Origin: Persicimonas caeni
GTDB lineage: Bacteria; Myxococcota_A; Bradymonadia; Bradymonadales; Bradymonadaceae
Assembly: GCF_006517175.1 (NCBI RefSeq)
Contig: NZ_CP041186.1
Span: 7,405,074 to 7,469,073 of the forward strand
Direction: 5' to 3'
DNA length: 64,000 nt
Below are positions 1,802 to 11,226 of the stretch, one piece after another (the first letter of the stretch is position 1; every line of letters starts with the position of its first letter). Under the pieces are notes generated by a model that saw only the letters and a list, made by a program, of their open reading frames with translations, did no database searches and was not told the DNA's origin. A program made the translations under genes and the position numbers.

Positions 1802-3355
1802 CTAGCGCGTGCAGTATCCACCCGTCGCGCAGGTGCCGGTGCGGCAATCCGTGCCGTCCCAGCAACTCGTGGTGCAGAAGCCGTTGACGCAGGTGGCGTC
1901 GCCGGCGCAGTTGCTGTTGTCACGGCACTCGTAGCCAGCGCGGTAGTCGGGGCGACATACGCCGTGGTCGCACATCATCTGGCTGCCGCAGTCGGCGTCG
2001 GCCGAGCAGGGGGCGAAGCAGAATCCGTCGATGCAGGTTTCGCCCGAGGGGCACTCGCTGCTGGCGGTGCAAGCTTGGGCCGGGCTCGGGTTGGTCTTGC
2101 ATACGCCGCTCTGGCAAGTCTGGCTGTAGGGGCAGTCACTGTCGGAAGAGCAATCGTAGTGGCAGAAGCCCGACAGGCAGCTCTTCTCGAGGCCGCATTG
2201 CGCGTCGGTCACGCAGATCTTGTCGACGACCTGGCAGGTGCCCGACACACACATCTCGCACGGCTCACAGTCGGCCGAGGACTCACACGACACAGGCCCG
2301 GTCGGGCCGGAGTCGGCCACGCAACGTCCGTCGGCGCCGCAAGACTCACCGCTTCGGCACTGCGCGTCGTCGGTGCATCCCAGGCGGCACTGACCACGGT
2401 CGCAGTACGAGCCGTCGGTGCAGTCGCTGTCGCTCTGGCAAAACTCGTCCGTCACGCACAGTCCGTCCTCGCAGCGCTCGTTGGCCGAGCAGTCGGCGTT
2501 CGACGAGCAGGTCGGCGCTTCGCTTCGGTCCGGGTCGGTGCTCGAGCCAGCGTCGTCTGCGTCGGGCGTGCCGGCATCGGTGCCTCCATTATTGTCGGGC
2601 TGCCCGACCACAGGCGGCGCCGGGGCAGGGCGGCTCGGGTCGAGCGGCGAAGCCGGCGTACACACACCTCGCCAGCAAAGGCCGTTTTGGCCACATTCGT
2701 CGTCTTGGGTGCAACCCGATGAGCAGTGCCCTTCGAAGCAGACTGCATCTTGACCGCAGTCGGTGTCATCGGCGCATTCGACGCGACAACTTCCGTCTTC
2801 ACACAGTCCATTCTCGCCGCAGTCCGTATCTTGCGTGCAGCTGCCGCCGACCACACAGCGTCCTTCGTGGCAGACTTCGTCCACCGCGCAGTCGACGCTC
2901 GCCTCACAGGCCGGTACACACACGCCGTCGACGCTACAAAACTCGCCTTCGAAGCACTCGGCATCCGACTCGCAGCGCACCGGCGCCTCACACATCCCGT
3001 CGTCGCAGCGGCGCGACTGGCAGTCGAGATCCGATTCGCACTCGCCGACACCCGGCTCGGGCCAGCAGTAGCGCCCGGCGGTGCAAATCTCCCCATCGGC
3101 ACACTCCGAGTCGGCGGCGCACACCTCCACGCAGCTATCTTCGCGGCATACCTGGCCTTCACTGCAGTCGCCGTCGGCACTGCATGTCTCCACGACGCTG
3201 TAGGGGCCGTCCTCCTTGTCATTGCAGCCGGAGCAGCCGGCCAAGAACATCAGGGCCAAGGAGGCCAGCACCTGAAGGCATCGCGTGGCAGATATGCGTC
3301 GACATCGACTCATCAAAGGCGTCATTCTCGAGTCTCGATCCATGGGGGAAGCCAT
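1802..3355 (-). CDS. large cysteine-rich repeat lipoprotein
   Basis: About 517 residues. The ATG at 3355 is chosen because AGGAGA lies about 8 nt upstream and a lipoprotein signal peptide follows, ending in the lipobox LAGC. The mature protein is almost wholly short Cys repeats of the type C-x(2-6)-DC-x(2-3)-G-x2-C-x(3-6)-C, well over a dozen units. A Pro/Asp/Thr-rich spacer near the middle contains PDNNGGTDAGTPD. Similar repeats are found in surface lipoproteins of myxobacteria and relatives, sometimes annotated as Dickkopf- or EB-like. The pattern predicts a disulfide-stabilised, extended cell-surface stalk. No enzymatic domain is visible. The gene stands alone with a long upstream region containing a palindromic element. 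Confidence 0.75.
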   Translation of the reverse strand: MASPMDRDSRMTPLMSRCRRISATRCLQVLASLALMFLAGCSGCNDKEDGPYSVVETCSADGDCSEGQVCREDSCVEVCAADSECADGEICTAGRYCWPEPGVGECESDLDCQSRRCDDGMCEAPVRCESDAECFEGEFCSVDGVCVPACEASVDCAVDEVCHEGRCVVGGSCTQDTDCGENGLCEDGSCRVECADDTDCGQDAVCFEGHCSSGCTQDDECGQNGLCWRGVCTPASPLDPSRPAPAPPVVGQPDNNGGTDAGTPDADDAGSSTDPDRSEAPTCSSNADCSANERCEDGLCVTDEFCQSDSDCTDGSYCDRGQCRLGCTDDAQCRSGESCGADGRCVADSGPTGPVSCESSADCEPCEMCVSGTCQVVDKICVTDAQCGLEKSCLSGFCHYDCSSDSDCPYSQTCQSGVCKTNPSPAQACTASSECPSGETCIDGFCFAPCSADADCGSQMMCDHGVCRPDYRAGYECRDNSNCAGDATCVNGFCTTSCWDGTDCRTGTCATGGYCTR

Positions 3356-3384
3356 TTGGGGTCTCTCCTGATAGCTAGAATCAG

Positions 3385-3550
3385 CTAGTGGGGTGACACC
3401 GAAGTGAGATTCAACCTTTCGGTGAGGATAGCGCCGCCAGATTCGGATGCGAACCCCGCAGGCGATGCAGCGCATCGTCGAGGAGTGAGCGCCGAAGCTG
3501 GTGTTGCTAGACCGGCGAAGGTGAATCGAATCTCGGTGTCACACCACTAG
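3385..3550. repeat. MITE-like palindromic element with CTAGTGG terminal inverted repeats
   Basis: The two ends start CTAGTGGgGTGACACCGA and, on the other strand, CTAGTGGtGTGACACCGA. The similarity continues inward with small indels for about 65-70 bp per arm, so the whole 166 bp folds as one imperfect hairpin. There is no open reading frame inside. It sits in the 502-bp gap (3356-3857) between the divergent cysteine-rich and DUF507 genes. The rest of that gap shows no further feature except the DUF507 ribosome-binding site. Related ends are seen at 21430-21449 and 44667-44676. Confidence 0.6.
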
Positions 3551-3857
3551 AGTATATCTCATTGCCGCGCCAATTTTCTATCCACACGCTCGCGCACGGC
3601 TCCTGTTGATGTCTTCGCTTTGTTTGGACTGAGGTGCGCCGAAGATATTCAATTTTTCTGTGGGAGATTTTGAAAGACCCGGCGCGCTTTGACTGTTCAG
3701 TCGCCAGAGGACATTTTTGGTCCGGGGCACAGGGCCGGCCGCGCGTGCTCGAAGGTTCGAAATCACTTTAGGCTTGCCTTCAGCTAGCAAAGCTGCAAAA
3801 AACAAGGCTCGAAGCCCCCAACGAAAGCTAAGTTTTACCGCGGAAACTGGAGGAGAT

Positions 3858-4367
3858 ATGCGGCTCTATCATGGTCAGGTGTCAGCAGTTGCCGGAGAGC
3901 TCGCGCGCACTCTGAGCAAAGAGGACCATCTCGAAATCGAGCCGGCCAATTTGGCGGAAGTCCAGATGGACATCGAGTCGGTACTCAAAGAGTATATTCG
4001 GCTCGATCGCGAGTTGAATAGCCGTGCCCGCGATATTCAGTCGTCCGAGGGCGGCAGCTTCGCGCGCATCAAAAGCCGGCTGGCCCGTCGCAAGGGCGTC
4101 GATGTTCACGACGATCCCATCGGCTACATCATCGACCAGCTCATCGACATCTTCTTTCACTCGCACTTCGTCAACGAAGTCTTCGCCGACGACCGCACGC
4201 TTCGCCTGACGATGAAGCCGATCCTCGAGCGCTATATGAGCGTTCAAGAGGAGCTCGACGAAGAAGTCCGCGACAAGATCAAGAACCTCGAAGAAGGCAG
4301 TCGCGAGTGGGAAGTCGAGTACGAAAAGGTCATGGGGCGCCTCAAGCGCACCAAGAATCTCGAGTAG
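3858..4367 (+). CDS. DUF507 family protein
   Basis: 169 residues starting at the ATG at 3858, which has GGAGGAG 3-9 nt upstream; the frame is open further upstream but without a better start. The C-terminus carries the DUF507 hallmark EGSREWEVEYEKV, preceded by an acidic helix (EELDEEVRDKIKNLEEG). The N-terminus MRLYHGQVSAVAGEL also fits the family. Family members are cytoplasmic, helical and uncharacterised, mostly from deltaproteobacteria and Aquificae-like lineages. The protein seems to hold two related DUF507 halves, since LAEVQMDIESVLKEYIRLD resembles a first copy. Function unknown. Confidence 0.8.
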   Translation: MRLYHGQVSAVAGELARTLSKEDHLEIEPANLAEVQMDIESVLKEYIRLDRELNSRARDIQSSEGGSFARIKSRLARRKGVDVHDDPIGYIIDQLIDIFFHSHFVNEVFADDRTLRLTMKPILERYMSVQEELDEEVRDKIKNLEEGSREWEVEYEKVMGRLKRTKNLE

Positions 4368-4376
4368 GCCGACTGG

Positions 4377-6242
4377 TCATCGAGCGGCGACCATGCGCTG
4401 GCGCACCGAGCGCCACCAACGCGACCAGTAACGGTGCAGCCGTGCGTGACTCCAGGCTTCCAGCGGGGCCCAGCGCCCGGTGACACGCTTGAGCGTCAAG
4501 TTGGCGTTATAAGCCACGTGCTCGGGTCCCTTCTTCAGCATCGGGATGAGCTCGTCGACGGCGTCGACCGTAAAGACGTCGTCGGCCTCGAGCCCGTGGG
4601 CGATAAAGCCCTCCTCGAGCCAGTCATCGCGCCTCTTATCGCCGTTGTCCTTCCACCACTTCTTCCAACTTGCCAGGGCTTTGGCGCGTGCATCGTCAGA
4701 TGCCTTCTCCCAATCCACATTCTCGGCGCGATTCGTCACGCGACGTAGCGCTACGGCAAGCTCTGCACGTACGGCGTCGGGCTGTGTCTCGAGTTGTTGG
4801 AGTAGAAAGGGCACGAGCTCCGGCTCCATAAGATGGATGAGCGAACGCGCCGCCATCACGCGCTCGGCCTCGGCCAGCTCGGTGTCGGCGATGCGTTTCT
4901 TGAGGCGATCGACCGCCAATGTATCCGCCGCCCGACGAATCACGCTGTAGGCGTAAGCCTTCTCCTCCAGACTAAATTCGCTGCGCTCGACGAATCGAAG
5001 CGCGGCACCGACGGCGGCGCCGGACCAGATCGGCACATCTTTGGCGACCTCGAGCGCGCGCTTTCGCACCTTGTCGCTCTTTTCGTGCAACGCGGCCGCA
5101 AGGGCCAACTCCGGGGCGTAAGGCGAGCGAATGCGCTCCAAAAAGTCGAGGGCGCGAATGCGCGTCTCCTCTTTAGGGGCCCGAAACGCTCGGGCCACCG
5201 CCATCGAACGGGCGAGTAGATCGTCGTAATGCCAGTCGACCCACTCCCAGCGCGGCCCAAAATCGAGGCATCCTTCCAAGCGATCGCGTTTGGGGCAGGT
5301 GATGCGAAGGTGGAAGTGATCATCGTGTGGCGACGAGTCGGTCGGCTGGTGGAGCACCTTCTCGGCACGCTTGATGATTTCTTCGTCGGCGCCTTGTGCG
5401 CGGGCGTGGTCGAGCAACAGCTTCTTGAGGCCCTCGCTGATGAAGAGCCACTGAATATGCACGCGCTCGTGGCTCAACAAGGCCTCGACGAGCTTCCAGT
5501 TGCGCTCGACGTCGAACACCAGATCCGGACGCTTGATGCCATCGCCGCTCGAGTCGAAGTCGAGCAGTCCTGGCGCCAGCACCGGTTTGCCGTCCTTTTT
5601 GGTCTTGCAGAAGAATGCCAGATCGGCGTCTCGTCCCGAATTGTGTGATGCACTCCAGGGGATATCGCCGCCGTGTTTCCTGCTCATGTTGCCAATGCGA
5701 AGCTTCGAGCCTGGATATGCCTTCGATACCACCTTCGCCGAGTCCAAGATCACTTCGATGAGTGCCTCCGAGCCAAACTGCGTGTTTCGATTGCGGTGGC
5801 GCTCGATAACCGAATGATGGTCTCCGTCTTCAGGGATACGCGCGGCGTTGCGAAGCTCGCCTCTTCCGACGGTGCCCAGGGACAGCGAATGGATGAACTG
5901 GCGCTTCGGGTCGAGCAGTTTCGCAAAGTCGGGCTGCTCGGGAAGCGGCTTCCACCAACCGACGACTCGTTCACCGGCCGCGTTCACCGCGTGACCGAGC
6001 GCCTTCGAAGCGGCGGCCTTCGCTGGCGCGAGGTCGACGGTCGGCTCGCGCTCGATGACGCGCACCTCGGGCTCCTCGGCCTCCAACTGCACCTCGGCAA
6101 CACTTGCCGGCTGCGATCGCGCAGCCTCCGCGCTCTGTCCACTCTGCAGCAACTCGTGGCTCGTGCCACACGCCGCCAGGGCGAGCAAAGCTATCCAGGT
6201 ACCTGAAACGATATACTTCGACGTATTCAAGCGGGGCGCCAT
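4377..6242 (-). CDS. MepA-type murein endopeptidase lipoprotein with C-terminal HEAT-like repeats
   Basis: About 621 residues. Starts at 6287 (GTG), 6272 (ATG) and 6242 (ATG) are possible; 6242 places a normal lipoprotein signal ending LLALAACG at the N-terminus. The first half is a LAS/M74 penicillin-insensitive murein endopeptidase with the zinc motif HNSGRDADLAF and the distal HDDHFHLRI motif. Such enzymes cut D-Ala-mDAP cross-links in the periplasm. The second half (about residues 330-600) has repeated helical pairs with Arg/Leu periodicity, such as ALDFLERIRSPYAPELA and ALRRVTNRAENVDWEKA, which looks like HEAT/armadillo repeats. That addition is not part of standard MepA. The stop lies 9 bp from that of the convergent DUF507 gene. 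Confidence 0.8.
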   Translation of the reverse strand: MAPRLNTSKYIVSGTWIALLALAACGTSHELLQSGQSAEAARSQPASVAEVQLEAEEPEVRVIEREPTVDLAPAKAAASKALGHAVNAAGERVVGWWKPLPEQPDFAKLLDPKRQFIHSLSLGTVGRGELRNAARIPEDGDHHSVIERHRNRNTQFGSEALIEVILDSAKVVSKAYPGSKLRIGNMSRKHGGDIPWSASHNSGRDADLAFFCKTKKDGKPVLAPGLLDFDSSGDGIKRPDLVFDVERNWKLVEALLSHERVHIQWLFISEGLKKLLLDHARAQGADEEIIKRAEKVLHQPTDSSPHDDHFHLRITCPKRDRLEGCLDFGPRWEWVDWHYDDLLARSMAVARAFRAPKEETRIRALDFLERIRSPYAPELALAAALHEKSDKVRKRALEVAKDVPIWSGAAVGAALRFVERSEFSLEEKAYAYSVIRRAADTLAVDRLKKRIADTELAEAERVMAARSLIHLMEPELVPFLLQQLETQPDAVRAELAVALRRVTNRAENVDWEKASDDARAKALASWKKWWKDNGDKRRDDWLEEGFIAHGLEADDVFTVDAVDELIPMLKKGPEHVAYNANLTLKRVTGRWAPLEAWSHARLHRYWSRWWRSVRQRMVAAR

Positions 6243-6483
6243 CGCGTCTCGTGATCCGATTTTGTTGTGCATGATCCAAGGGTTCACTGCTTAATTCTAA
6301 GGCATCTACGGCTGCAGGTCCATTTCGGAGATGGGTTGAAGCGTTACTTGAGAGCGTGATTAAGTGTTTGAGAACGTACGGGATCGAAATGGTCGACAAA
6401 GTGGCGAAGGTGACCTAAAAGAGAACTGCGCTGCAATGTCCTACGCGCATCAAAACCCCTGAGCGGCCCCTTCTGGTAGTTCA

Positions 6484-9162
6484 ATGAAGTCCAACTCTCC
6501 GACCAGTCTCATCATGTGGGCGGTGGCGCTGTTATTGGCCATTGCCAGCCTTGTCTTCGGTTACCTGCAGCTCGACGGGCTGCCCGATTTGGGCGTCCAG
6601 TTCGGCCCGGATCTGACCGTGCGCTCGGTCTCCGTCGACCGTCAAGAGGGCGCAGAGCGCCAGGAATTCAAGCGTGGCGACCGCCTCGTGGCGTTGGAGG
6701 GGCAATCTGTCGAGGATCTGCGTGACCTCAGAATGGTCCTCCAGAACCTCCCGGACACTCCCGTCGCTTCCGGTGAGCCGCTCGGCCCCGGTGACAAGGC
6801 GCAGCCGACGGTTGCCGGAGCCGAGGCGGGGCAGGCGGAAGCAATCGACGACGCGTCGCGCACGGCGAGCTACCAACTCGTGCGGCCACTGCATCGCTTT
6901 CACATCACCCTTCAAGGAGAACTCAAAGATCCGACCGCGCTTCCCCAGGGGGTCGAGCCCACGGACCGCCTGATCGAACTCGACGGGCGGAAATTGCAGA
7001 CCAAGGTCGGCCCGGAGGCGGTGCGCAGCATCGTGGCCAGCCGTCCCGAGGCGCTGCTCGTCTTCGAGCGCAAAAACGCGGTCTTCTCGGGGTCGATGAA
7101 GGTCCCGGACCCCGAGCCGCCTTATGGCGTCGTGGGCACCTTCGGCCTCGTCGCCATCGTGCTCATCGGGCTGTGGTGGTTTCGCTCACGCGAACTCGAA
7201 CCGGGCGCCGTCGTCGCCATCAGCCTCCAGACAGTCTGCATCGGCTGGATTGCGCTGCTCGCCTTCGAGTATCAGTGGACGCTCTCTGATTACGGGTTGA
7301 CCGCCGCTGTGATCGCAGGCTTCGCGCTCGTGCGTCCGTTTGCGTTCTTCGCGCGCAATATCGGCTCGGGCTACGGCACCCAGAGCGGCTGGAGTTCACT
7401 GGCCGTGGGGCTGTTCGCGACCGGCTCGGTGCTCGGTTTGCTCTTTGGCGGCTACTTCGAGAGTGCCGAGCAGGCGCTTCATGTGGCTGCCCTGATCGCC
7501 GGACTCTTCGTCGTCTACGAGATCTTTTTGGCGAGCATCGACGACACCGGCCCCGCGAGTACGCTGGGAGAGGGCACCGGATACTTGGCGTGGATCCTCG
7601 TGCTCGCGCTCTTCTCGGCGCTGCTCGCATGGTACCTCGCGCCGATTTCCTTCGAGGAGAACCGCTGGCGTTGGTTCTCGGCGGTCATTGTCGGGCTCGT
7701 CTGGTTCGGAGACGTCCTCTATTGCTTCCGCGGGCCGGGAGCCTCCGGTTACGACGCCATTGCTCACAAGGCGGACCGCCAGATTGTCGTGAGCGACTAT
7801 CTGGCGCAGGTGCGCGAGCTCGTCCCGGAAGCAGAGCCGTTTATCGTCGTGGCCACGCGTGAAGAATCTGTTTTGCTCGAGACTCGCGGTGACGGCCTGC
7901 GAACCAGCCCGACCTCCGAAGCGCTGCACGACGCGGTGTCGATCCTCATCCAAGAGGGCGTTCGCGTCCCATTGCCGGACGGAATTCACCGCCAAGCCCA
8001 CCCGATGGGAGGCATCGCCAAGACGATGGATATGGCGCTCGCCCTGCGCCTCGCGCCGCCCGAGGGCGGTGTCAGAGTCGACGGGGTCGAACTGGTGCTC
8101 GTCGGGATCGAGGAGTCACCCGCCGCAGAGTTACCGGTCCACCCATCGAACGAGATCCTCGACGCATTGCAAGACCTGTTGTCCGGTCAAATCTGGACCG
8201 CAGCCCTCGTCGAAGGACTTCCCGAGCTTCGGCTCCCCGAAGCCAAGTCGCCCCCCGAGGCCCATGCGGAGCCTTCCAGCATCTCCGTTGCCGAGAGCGA
8301 GGAGGTCGATGCACTTAAAGAAGAAGTTGAAGAACTGCGCCGGCAGCTTCTCGAGGCGAGGTCGGCTTCTGAGTCGGACTCCGATGAACCTGCTACTGTG
8401 GAACAAGCTCCCGTAGAGCCCGAGCCGGCTCCTGCAGCAGTTGCGGTGACGAAGGCGGTTCCGCTCGACGCGCCGCCGGCAGACTTTGAAGCGTTGCTCG
8501 AGCCGGAGCTTGTAGACGCGCTTCTCTACCTACTCGATTCGCCCGAGCCGATCGTCTTGGCCGGTGCGCGAGGCGCCGGCAAAACGTTCACGGCACGCTG
8601 TGCCCACGCGCTCGAGGCACATCGCGAGTCCACGCTAATCGCTTACGACGCGGGCGATGCACGCGGAGCGGACCATGCCGTAGCACTCTTCGGTCAGCCC
8701 GACGACACCGCTGATACCGGGGTGGTCTCCGAGATGCAGGGCGGTGCGCTGCTCATTCAGGATGCCAGCGAACTCTCCGACACAGTGATCCTTCGGTTGT
8801 GCCAGGCCGCCGAACTCGGCGATTTGCGCCTGTACCTCGAGTTCAACTCGGCCGACGCTGAAGAACGCTCGGTATTCGACGAGCGCTCCAGTGAGGTTCG
8901 AGAGTTGCTCGAACATCGTGAGTTGATTATTCCGCACCTGTCTCACCGCCTCTCGGTGCTTCAAGTCCTACTCGAGCGTTTCTGTGCCGAGCAGGGGCTC
9001 GACGACTTCACGGACGAGGCCTTCGAAGCGCTGATGAATTACGATTATCCCGGCGAGGTCGCCGAGGCGCAGACGATCGTCGAGGCTGCTGTAACTCGAG
9101 CAGAAGGCGAGGTGATCACCCTCCAAGACCTTCCGGACAGCATCTTCGAGACGTCGTCTTGA
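6484..9162 (+). CDS. PDZ-like, multi-TM protein fused to a degenerate NtrC-family AAA+ domain
   Basis: 892 residues. Residues 12-30 form one TM helix. Two PDZ-like segments follow (FKRGDRLVALEGQSVEDLRD and TDRLIELDGRKLQ), then about six to seven TM helices (about 210-420), a soluble region, and a Glu-rich coiled coil (EEVDALKEEVEELRRQLLEA). The C-terminus resembles a sigma54-activator AAA+ domain: Walker A GARGAGKT at 694-701, a Walker B-like GGALLIQDASEL, and YDYPGEVAEAQ in place of the usual YxWPGNVREL. The GAFTGA loop is missing, the acidic Walker B is altered, and no HTH follows, so it is unlikely to activate sigma54 promoters. It may be a membrane-anchored switch; function not known. Confidence 0.6.
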   Translation: MKSNSPTSLIMWAVALLLAIASLVFGYLQLDGLPDLGVQFGPDLTVRSVSVDRQEGAERQEFKRGDRLVALEGQSVEDLRDLRMVLQNLPDTPVASGEPLGPGDKAQPTVAGAEAGQAEAIDDASRTASYQLVRPLHRFHITLQGELKDPTALPQGVEPTDRLIELDGRKLQTKVGPEAVRSIVASRPEALLVFERKNAVFSGSMKVPDPEPPYGVVGTFGLVAIVLIGLWWFRSRELEPGAVVAISLQTVCIGWIALLAFEYQWTLSDYGLTAAVIAGFALVRPFAFFARNIGSGYGTQSGWSSLAVGLFATGSVLGLLFGGYFESAEQALHVAALIAGLFVVYEIFLASIDDTGPASTLGEGTGYLAWILVLALFSALLAWYLAPISFEENRWRWFSAVIVGLVWFGDVLYCFRGPGASGYDAIAHKADRQIVVSDYLAQVRELVPEAEPFIVVATREESVLLETRGDGLRTSPTSEALHDAVSILIQEGVRVPLPDGIHRQAHPMGGIAKTMDMALALRLAPPEGGVRVDGVELVLVGIEESPAAELPVHPSNEILDALQDLLSGQIWTAALVEGLPELRLPEAKSPPEAHAEPSSISVAESEEVDALKEEVEELRRQLLEARSASESDSDEPATVEQAPVEPEPAPAAVAVTKAVPLDAPPADFEALLEPELVDALLYLLDSPEPIVLAGARGAGKTFTARCAHALEAHRESTLIAYDAGDARGADHAVALFGQPDDTADTGVVSEMQGGALLIQDASELSDTVILRLCQAAELGDLRLYLEFNSADAEERSVFDERSSEVRELLEHRELIIPHLSHRLSVLQVLLERFCAEQGLDDFTDEAFEALMNYDYPGEVAEAQTIVEAAVTRAEGEVITLQDLPDSIFETSS

Positions 9163-9273
9163 GCTCGTCGAGGCGATGCCGATGCCCAGTCGCCACTCGG
9201 CGATTTGACCTTTGCCCTCCGACTGCAGCAAAATAGGGGGCGTTCGAACGCCACGCCTATTGCGAGTCGACGA

Positions 9274-11226
9274 GTGACGACTGTGAGAAACCGTTTTTGC
9301 ATTGTTTGTGCGATCGTCTTTTCCTTCGGAACGGCCGGTTGTCTGTCCGGAACAGAGGACAATAACCAACCGGAGAACGAGCGTATCGTTCGATTGGTGC
9401 CGGTCGACAATGACCAGCGCACATTGGTGCCGAGTTCTGTGCTGCAGCTCCGGCTCCAGAGCACCGACCGGGTGGTGGCCGACAAGGCGACTGTCAGCTT
9501 TGCCGGCGTCCACAGCGTCCACGGGAAGTTCATCGAAACCTATTCGGCCGAGGTCGACCGCCTCGGAGACGTCGGCGACATTGTCGTGCGTCTGCCAGTG
9601 AGCCAATCGCTTTGGGACGACGTCGACACTCCCTCGCCGAGTTCTTTCGAGGGCAATGTGGAGGTCGAACTTAGCGACGCGCTCGGCCCGGTGGTGCGCG
9701 GACGCCTCGACAGCGTTCAATTCGAGTTCGTGCGCCAACTCGAGCCGTTCGCCGAGGCGTTTTCGGTGGGCGACGTCTATCCGAACCAGCTCATCGAAAT
9801 CAGCGGCGCAGGGTTTTTGCGCCCAGAGGAGGGGGCCACTGTCGCGGTCATCGAGTCCGGCAGTGTCGACACTGACGCGGGGCCGTCGCGAGACGTCTCC
9901 GGCCAAGAGATCGCGCTTCGGTGGGCCGGCAGTCGCGACAAGGCGCTCGTGCCGGTCGATCCTGCGGTTTTTGGGGTGCAGACGGCCAGTTTCGAGGTGA
10001 GCGTTTATCTCGAAAACCAGTTGACCGACGGCTCGACGTCGGGTCGAACACAGACGGTCGAACTGAGCGGAACGATCCAGCAACCCTACATTGCACGGCT
10101 GTCACCCGATGCAGGAAGCCGGGGGCAGAAGATCACAATCGTCGGCCGCGGCCTCATCCCCACCGACGACGAGGGTGGCTACGGCATGTTGCTGCGCTAC
10201 GAGGGTACCTTCACCCCGGATGACCCCGAACTTCCTTCGCAGGAGTTCAACACCACGCCGCTCCGACGCCCGCCCGATCGCATCGTCAACGAGCAAGAGG
10301 CCGAGCAGAGCGTCTGGTACACCATCGAAGACGATCGCAGCCTGACCGGTCTGGGAGCTACGCCGGGCGTCTTCGAGGGGACTATCACGCCGGAACTGTT
10401 CGACAACTGGGGCGACCAGGAAGGCATTGCTTGGCAGGGCGTCTTTCGCGTGCTCCCGACCAAGCAGGTCGTCTACCTGAAGTACCTGCCCGCCTTCTCC
10501 AAAGGCCTCGAGAAGTACGGGCTTCGCAACGTCGAGCGCGAGATTCGCGATCGTGTGCTCGAAGTGGCCGAGCGTGACTATGAGGGCATCAACATCGATT
10601 TTCGTGAGGCACAGCCCGACGACTTCATCGAATACGCGGTCATCGAGTTGGGTGGGCCGGATCCGAGCGGACGCAACGCGTTTGGCTACGACAACACCTT
10701 CAACGGTGTCGCCAAGGATACCGGCAACCTCTTTTTGGGGGACTACCTGGGCGGCGTGAACGCCCAGAGTGGCGAAGAGTTTAACAATCCGTACGGCGGC
10801 ATCTTCATCGAGTCGTTCTCGTTCTTCAGCCCGACGCTCAACCCCGATAGCCAGTACACGTCGCCGGCGTTCGACCGGATCATGAAGCCCTTTATGCCGG
10901 CGCTCGACGGCGAGCCGATCAAAGGGTCGGAGTGGCCCGACGGGCCGCGACGCGAGGCCATCGCCGATGCAATCCACATGGTCGGCAGCGTCATCGGCAA
11001 CACCGTCTCCCACGAGTTGGGTCATTCGTTCGGATTAACCTATTTTCCCGAAGACGACATCGAGCCGACCAATCGCTTCCACAATCAGGTCAGCGGCCCC
11101 TACATCATGGACCCGGGCGCGGAGCGACCCTTCGAAGAGCGCGCGGAGCTCGACGGGCAGGGGCCGGCGCGCTTCAATGACCGAAATTACAACTACTTAC
11201 GCACCCATCTGCCGGCACCCGAATAA
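9274..11226 (+). CDS. lipoprotein with IPT/TIG-like domains and a metzincin-like HExxH site
   Basis: About 650 residues. The GTG at 9274 puts the lipobox FGTAGC about 20 residues in; GTG 9283 is an alternative. At least two IPT/TIG-like modules are visible (NQLIEISGAGFL and RGQKITIVGRGLIP). A C-terminal metallopeptidase-like domain follows with SHELGHSFGLTYF and, about 30 residues later, YIMDPG, which fits a metzincin Met-turn. The usual third zinc ligand of HExxHxxGxxH is a tyrosine here, so activity is uncertain. It probably sits on the outer membrane or cell surface as a calcium- or adhesion-type protease (inference). It lies upstream of rpsO with a separate putative promoter between them. 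Confidence 0.65.
   Translation: MTTVRNRFCIVCAIVFSFGTAGCLSGTEDNNQPENERIVRLVPVDNDQRTLVPSSVLQLRLQSTDRVVADKATVSFAGVHSVHGKFIETYSAEVDRLGDVGDIVVRLPVSQSLWDDVDTPSPSSFEGNVEVELSDALGPVVRGRLDSVQFEFVRQLEPFAEAFSVGDVYPNQLIEISGAGFLRPEEGATVAVIESGSVDTDAGPSRDVSGQEIALRWAGSRDKALVPVDPAVFGVQTASFEVSVYLENQLTDGSTSGRTQTVELSGTIQQPYIARLSPDAGSRGQKITIVGRGLIPTDDEGGYGMLLRYEGTFTPDDPELPSQEFNTTPLRRPPDRIVNEQEAEQSVWYTIEDDRSLTGLGATPGVFEGTITPELFDNWGDQEGIAWQGVFRVLPTKQVVYLKYLPAFSKGLEKYGLRNVEREIRDRVLEVAERDYEGINIDFREAQPDDFIEYAVIELGGPDPSGRNAFGYDNTFNGVAKDTGNLFLGDYLGGVNAQSGEEFNNPYGGIFIESFSFFSPTLNPDSQYTSPAFDRIMKPFMPALDGEPIKGSEWPDGPRREAIADAIHMVGSVIGNTVSHELGHSFGLTYFPEDDIEPTNRFHNQVSGPYIMDPGAERPFEERAELDGQGPARFNDRNYNYLRTHLPAPE

Follow-up and report, generated by a model that had tools for sequence, protein, structure and literature searches.

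Sigma54 activators are textbook AAA+ motors that drive transcription. In a 64,000-nucleotide stretch of the Persicimonas caeni genome (hereafter the window), a single gene joins an AAA+ domain of this type to PDZ-like domains and a series of transmembrane (TM) helices, raising the question of what an activator module might do within a membrane protein. GAFTGA-less activator relatives and transmembrane transcription regulators are already known separately; in the open-access literature, no description was found of a PDZ(-TM) protein joined to a sigma54-type AAA+ domain.

Architecture of the PDZ-TM-AAA+ protein

The gene product comprises one TM helix, two PDZ-like domains, seven further TM helices, a cytosolic middle domain, and an AAA+ domain, with the protein ending after the AAA+ lid. 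These features, and the evidence on which each was placed, are as follows.

6484..9162, + strand: PDZ-TM-pseudoAAA+ gene, 892 aa, an intact ORF with exactly these bounds
6505..6561, + strand: TM1, N-in (residues 8-26; hydropathy and charge pattern)
6568..6768, + strand: PDZ1, predicted periplasmic (residues about 29-95; Pfam and profile matches)
6856..7125, + strand: PDZ2, predicted periplasmic (residues about 125-214; RseP tandem profile match, PDZ1-PDZ2 hhalign)
7126..7728, + strand: TM2-TM8 (residues 215-415; hydropathy)
7759..8253, + strand: conserved cytosolic middle domain, no fold assigned (residues 426-590; E491 invariant)
8281..8403, + strand: charged linker, probably coiled-coil (residues about 600-640; read from sequence; the fastest-evolving part)
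8491..9153, + strand: degenerate AAA+ domain, sigma54-activator type (residues 670-890; Pfam, phmmer, profile, alignment)

In a Pfam scan of the window protein, AAA_lid_14 matched at 37.6 bits (cut-off 27) and Sigma54_activat at 20.0 bits, marginally below its cut-off of 20.2; PDZ_6 (25.5 bits) and PDZ_2 (24.8 bits) both fell marginally below a cut-off of 27. Searches of the PDB with phmmer matched ZraR, NtrC1, and PspF from residue 673-689 through 875-889, with the ZraR match covering residues 679-889 (E 5e-9). Together with the lid match, this bears out the first-pass annotation, made from the sequence alone, in its statement that the AAA+ part aligns with sigma54 activators to its end. A profile built from 25 family members (A1) matched NtrC1 at E 1e-40 and, at the opposite end, the DegQ PDZ domain at E 1.5e-4. 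The corresponding profile of the N-terminal region (24 relatives) matched the DegP/DegQ PDZ at E about 8e-7 and the PDZ tandem of A. aeolicus RseP at 6e-5; the PDZ2 profile alone matched this tandem weakly (E 0.006), and the PDZ1 and PDZ2 profiles matched one another in hhalign (85%, E 6e-6). By sequence profile, PDZ membership is found for the family, the window protein alone remaining sub-threshold. The PDZ profiles, eight TM helices, and AAA+ matches agree with the earlier description of a membrane PDZ protein fused to an NtrC-like AAA+ domain. Single-sequence structure models reached pLDDT values of 46.2 for the AAA+ part and 48.4 for the PDZ tandem, too low for either fold to be modelled with confidence.

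Periplasmic PDZ domains, as predicted here, are a feature shared with RseP-type site-2 proteases and DegP-type proteins, and the match to DegP/DegQ is stronger than that to A. aeolicus RseP. In contrast to RseP, the window protein does not contain the HExxH zinc motif (sequence check), and its output domain is an AAA+ domain. The middle domain had no profile match in the PDB. A GAF identity was considered for it and rejected, as hhalign likewise found no match to 12 GAF domains from the same genome or to 3 mid regions of FHA-AAA+ proteins.

By hydropathy, one of the eight hydrophobic helices precedes the PDZ pair and the other seven follow. By the same simple method, most of 25 proteins contain 7 to 9 TM helices (6 in L028 and 10 in L020; L018, with 2 counted, is a fragment), and Lys/Arg content tends to be higher in loops assigned inside than in those assigned outside. 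The charge bias and helix count together predict a topology in which the PDZ pair is periplasmic and the AAA+ domain cytosolic.

Loss of activator motifs in the AAA+ domain

AAA+ domains from 29 of the 33 family members were aligned with PspF and with 18 activator-type controls from the same genomes. The aligned members include 17 of the 18 from the window's own taxonomic family (f1; the near-duplicate in G018 was omitted), together with four from f2, two from f4, five of the eight from f5, and one from f6. In the window protein, the relevant sites are:

8563..8586, + strand: Walker A motif GARGAGKT, kept (residues 694-701)
8695..8718, + strand: site of the missing GAFTGA loop, directly after LFG (alignments)
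8743..8769, + strand: Walker B region GALLIQDAS, in which Q and D replace D107 and E108

The first-pass annotation had described a missing GAFTGA loop and an altered Walker B motif, and had proposed alignment with PspF as a check of the ATPase residues; both observations extend across the relatives. GAFTGA is kept in 0/29 members, and the loop end (PspF T86, G87, and A88) is a gap in every one of these, whereas F85 and T86 are present at the GAFTGA core in 15/18 controls. The controls without GAFTGA (L023, L094, and L097) are FHA-type AAA+ proteins with no terminal helix-turn-helix (HTH), in which R162 and R227 are kept. At Walker B, the window protein has LLIQD in place of LFLDE, and the Asp-Glu pair is absent from all 29 members: the residue at D107 is Q, R, E, K, or, once, D, while that at E108 is D (as in the window protein), H, S, G, R, T, or N. 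Among controls, D107 is found in 17/18 and E108 in 16/18. R162, an arginine finger of PspF, is found in no member and in all 18 controls. R227, the sensor II arginine, is retained in 3/29 members (Ala in the window protein) as compared with 18/18 controls, a loss that the first-pass annotation had not recorded. R168, the other arginine finger, is present in 7/29 members and 15/18 controls, an uncertain comparison given that this stretch is poorly aligned; the window protein has no Arg at the R162, R168, or R227 columns. The P-loop (Walker A) lysine is kept in 27/29 members, including the window protein (K700), and is replaced by Arg in L003 and L028.

The absence of GAFTGA across 29 relatives, as compared with PspF and 18 controls, cannot reflect an alignment slip in a single sequence, and the wider alignment recovered no intact GAFTGA. 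The roles of D107/E108, R168, and GAFTGA in PspF-type proteins are described in earlier work (PMC7175178, PMC10274813). Substitutions of both Walker B acids, the R162 finger, and the sensor II Arg, seen in the window protein and in nearly all of its relatives, make ATP hydrolysis by the AAA+ domain unlikely. Nucleotide binding through the retained P-loop is possible, and would not be general to the family, since the lysine is gone in two members; these residues favour a pseudo-ATPase, with a nucleotide-binding or scaffold role, over an ATPase. The same losses support the view that the window protein could not function as a sigma54 activator.

With sigma54 activators (bEBPs: PspF, NtrC1, and ZraR), the window protein shares the AAA+ domain and lid, the P-loop, and the NtrC1 profile match; it lacks their GAFTGA, Walker B Asp-Glu, R162 finger, sensor II Arg, and HTH, and adds the TM and PDZ regions. 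Activator relatives without GAFTGA have been described, including NtrC of Caulobacter and of R. capsulatus, VpsR (reportedly independent of ATP), TyrR, DhaR, and HupR (PMC10274813, PMC3162934). In these regulators, as in the window protein, the sigma54-contact loop is deleted or defective. However, they are described as transcription regulators, the passages cited mention no membrane or PDZ part, and the window form lacks catalytic residues and HTH as well. FleT of R. sphaeroides is an activator without signal and DNA-binding domains, for which FleQ is the partner in transcription activation (PMC3162934, PMC7277832); both it and the window protein are activator-type AAA+ proteins without HTH, but the latter is degenerate and membrane-anchored.

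Distribution, HTH history, and selection

Relatives were identified in 33/57 genomes of the class, a count read from the match list; the raw tally of 57/57 takes in ordinary activators as well. They occur in 18/21 genomes of f1, 4/5 of f2, 2/6 of f4, 8/8 of f5, and 1/1 of f6, and none were found in f3 (0/13) or f7 (0/3). One f1 member (G002) is split over two contigs, and one f5 member (G045) is cut by its contig. A profile of the N-terminal PDZ-TM-middle region matched 32/377 sampled genomes of the phylum, all from the same class, while a search of the window protein against contigs of named genomes returned two distant AAA+ matches only. This conservation of the architecture goes beyond the first-pass annotation, which had asked for its distribution among relatives; with the full-length arrangement present in many independent assemblies, a domain-boundary error or gene fusion artefact is ruled out.

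The window protein was correctly described as lacking an HTH, as it ends after the lid, and other f1 proteins similarly end after a short tail. Sequences from f2, f4, f5, and f6 instead carry a further C-terminal Fis-like HTH. Pfam HTH_8 matched 5/25 A1 members at E up to 0.01. When ten non-f1 C-termini were scanned separately, four exceeded the HTH_8 cut-off (L021, L024, L027 at 47.6 bits, and L099 at 46.3 bits); the remaining six had weaker HTH_8 or HTH_50 matches, with the f5 HTH being divergent. No separate HTH gene was seen downstream of the window gene.

Phylogenetic analysis of 48 AAA+ domains placed all 19 activators (PspF plus 18 controls) in one group (support 100/98) and the 17 HTH-less f1 sequences in one clade (100/100), with the HTH-bearing forms in between. 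Rooted on the activators, this topology fits the HTH having been lost once, at the base of f1. Since relatives in other families keep a Fis-like HTH, the family is, by origin, a membrane-tethered transcription regulator; these sequences support descent of the window protein from a membrane-tethered DNA-binding regulator, while indicating that it would itself be no DNA-binding factor in f1. The earlier suggestion of a membrane ATPase switch rather than a transcription factor survives in part: the protein is predicted to be membrane-anchored and without DNA binding here, but the catalytic residues of an ATPase are lost, and the contrast with transcription factors is incomplete in view of the HTH-bearing relatives.

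It is these relatives that ToxR, TcpP, and CadC resemble, which are single-protein transmembrane transcription regulators (PMC10269533); the PDZ-AAA+ family is distinguished by its 8 TM helices, PDZ tandem, and AAA+ domain. TM anchoring is common to both groups, whereas the cytosolic DNA-binding domain is absent in the window protein and present in its relatives. The terms "PDZ" and "sigma54" are absent from the main text of PMC10269533.

Estimates of dN/dS in four close pairs ranged from 0.02-0.10 for the PDZ region, 0-0.10 for the TM region, 0.06-0.12 for the middle domain, and 0.05-0.19 for the AAA+ domain; the linker gave 0.19-0.27 in three pairs and was saturated in the fourth. The AAA+ domain evolves faster than the PDZ region in 4/4 pairs, and its motifs differ among members, as would suit a decaying relic attached to a PDZ and TM part that alone matters. 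However, AAA+ dN/dS is far below 1, which argues that the degenerate domain is not drifting freely, and the AAA+ domain and lid are complete in the f1 C-termini examined; we consider a relic unlikely.

A proposed envelope receptor and its gene neighbourhood

The combination of a sensor end resembling envelope PDZ proteins with an AAA+ domain lacking the elements for sigma54 contact, ATP hydrolysis, and DNA binding points to a membrane receptor with a docking or oligomerisation platform. The protein appears to sense the cell envelope through the pair of PDZ domains outside, with signalling inward through the disabled AAA+ domain. With moderate confidence, we interpret it as a polytopic inner-membrane receptor comprising a PDZ sensor, a conserved cytosolic domain, and an inactive, activator-derived AAA+ module. 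The ligand of the tandem periplasmic PDZ-like domains would come from the envelope, the likeliest candidates being peptide ends exposed on periplasmic or outer-membrane proteins; its signal would pass through the eight TM helices and the conserved cytosolic domain to the AAA+ module. That module, of sigma54-activator origin, would no longer contact sigma54 or hydrolyse ATP and, in this lineage, is also without the HTH; it would probably still bind nucleotide and offer a cytosolic partner a ligand-gated platform for docking or oligomerisation. In HTH-bearing relatives, the same receptor would bind DNA while in the membrane. The data show the anatomy, motif losses, HTH history, purifying selection, and gene order, while hydropathy- and charge-based topology, absent hydrolysis, bound nucleotide, ligand, partner, and the peptidoglycan connection are inferences.

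This arrangement suggests a single-protein envelope-sensing pathway without need of a kinase, anti-sigma factor, or protease. Across a bacterial family, selection has retained an activator module that is without its motor residues and fused to a periplasmic sensor; because the HTH-bearing state persists in relatives, the way in which a motor-driven transcription factor became a membrane signalling protein can be tested stepwise.

A degenerate AAA+ domain might alternatively enter the ring of a normal activator of the same cell as a membrane-anchored, dominant-negative or co-subunit, keeping the ring membrane-bound as long as the PDZ domains are empty, by analogy with the restraint of PspF by PspA. 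The genome carries sigma54 and many intact activators, which makes such a role possible; purifying selection maintains the AAA+ fold and lid although the catalytic residues are gone, and activator hetero-oligomers have a described precedent in the joining of FleT to FleQ (PMC7277832, PMC9542535). However, the gene neighbourhood contains no linked partner, and the HTH-bearing relatives suggest self-sufficient DNA binding; we regard this alternative as distinctly unlikely. Improbable, too, is an extension of it, in which a class-wide receptor family carries a dead activator ring and the HTH-less lineage joins the AAA+ rings of other regulators upon envelope or peptidoglycan damage. The active membrane ATPase switch of the earlier reading, operating with non-canonical catalytic residues, could draw on the widely retained P-loop lysine and on the D that the window protein keeps, as its single acid, in place of E108, but is very improbable given loss of the Asp-Glu pair and R162 in 29/29 members and of the sensor II Arg in 26/29, all near-complete in the 18 controls.

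The receptor interpretation is extended by the genes adjoining the PDZ-AAA+ gene:

4377..6287, - strand: Peptidase_M74 murein endopeptidase with HEAT repeats, divergent partner (Pfam M74 54.9 bits; N-terminal lipobox, LAAC as read from sequence)
6288..6483, no strand: divergent intergenic region, 196 bp
9205..11226, + strand: probable lipoprotein with HELGHSFG metalloprotease motif, starting 42 bp past the stop of the PDZ-AAA+ gene

A divergent, adjoining M74 gene is present in 17/18 f1 genomes (11 from neighbourhood comparison and 6 from match coordinates), with the contig of the 18th (G007) ending there, and in 2/2 f4 members (G027 and G033). In f6 (G031), a GAF-histidine-kinase-like ORF separates the gene from a divergent M74; in f2 (0/4) and f5 (0/8), no M74 match was found on the gene's contig, some of these contigs being short. 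The divergent pairing suggests envelope signalling, and the receptor, for which an envelope or murein signalling role is probable, may monitor peptidoglycan or the envelope. As M74 is not adjacent in f2 and f5, and an ORF lies between in f6, any murein link would not be universal; as M74 also occurs in genomes without the PDZ-AAA+ family, co-occurrence alone says little.

The pairing kept in f1 and f4 is typical of a regulator and its target, and the protein might, as a membrane-tethered regulator without an HTH of its own, still control M74 expression via RNA polymerase or a partner. We find this highly doubtful, however, as the HTH is lost in the window's family and simple scans of the 196-bp region detected no sigma54 or strong sigma70 promoter signature. 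Two promoter-like sites in the intergenic region, against 0.9 expected, were not taken as promoter evidence, and no meaning was attached to three GG-N10-GC matches in 296 bases.

Several further observations concern these loci. The lipoprotein gene (9205-11226, +) has relatives in 7 other compared loci and is possibly in the same operon as the PDZ-AAA+ gene. Beyond the M74 gene lies that of a DUF507 protein (3717-4367, +), with a relative in 11 other compared loci. A cysteine-rich repeat protein (1802-3475, -) has matches in 7 other neighbourhoods. One f4 sequence (L021 / L083:7853-9553, from G033; 579 aa) no longer has the PDZ pair or most of the TM helices; it keeps the AAA+ domain, an HTH above the Pfam cut-off, and a divergent M74 neighbour. 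FHA-type proteins with an activator AAA+ domain and lid, and with no HTH or GAFTGA (L023:2196-4058, L094:40-1701, and L097:24-1730), occur in three f2 and f4 genomes and form a lineage separate from the PDZ family; in G021, an M74 gene is on the same contig as the FHA-type protein. In f5 and f6, a small conserved gene adjoins the HTH-bearing form:

L077:181-495, L078:12865-13149, L080:4397-4777, L081:6128-6415, L082:1164-1457: small conserved gene of f5/f6 loci

Both of the two scanned, of these five, match PHA_gran_rgn (PF09650).
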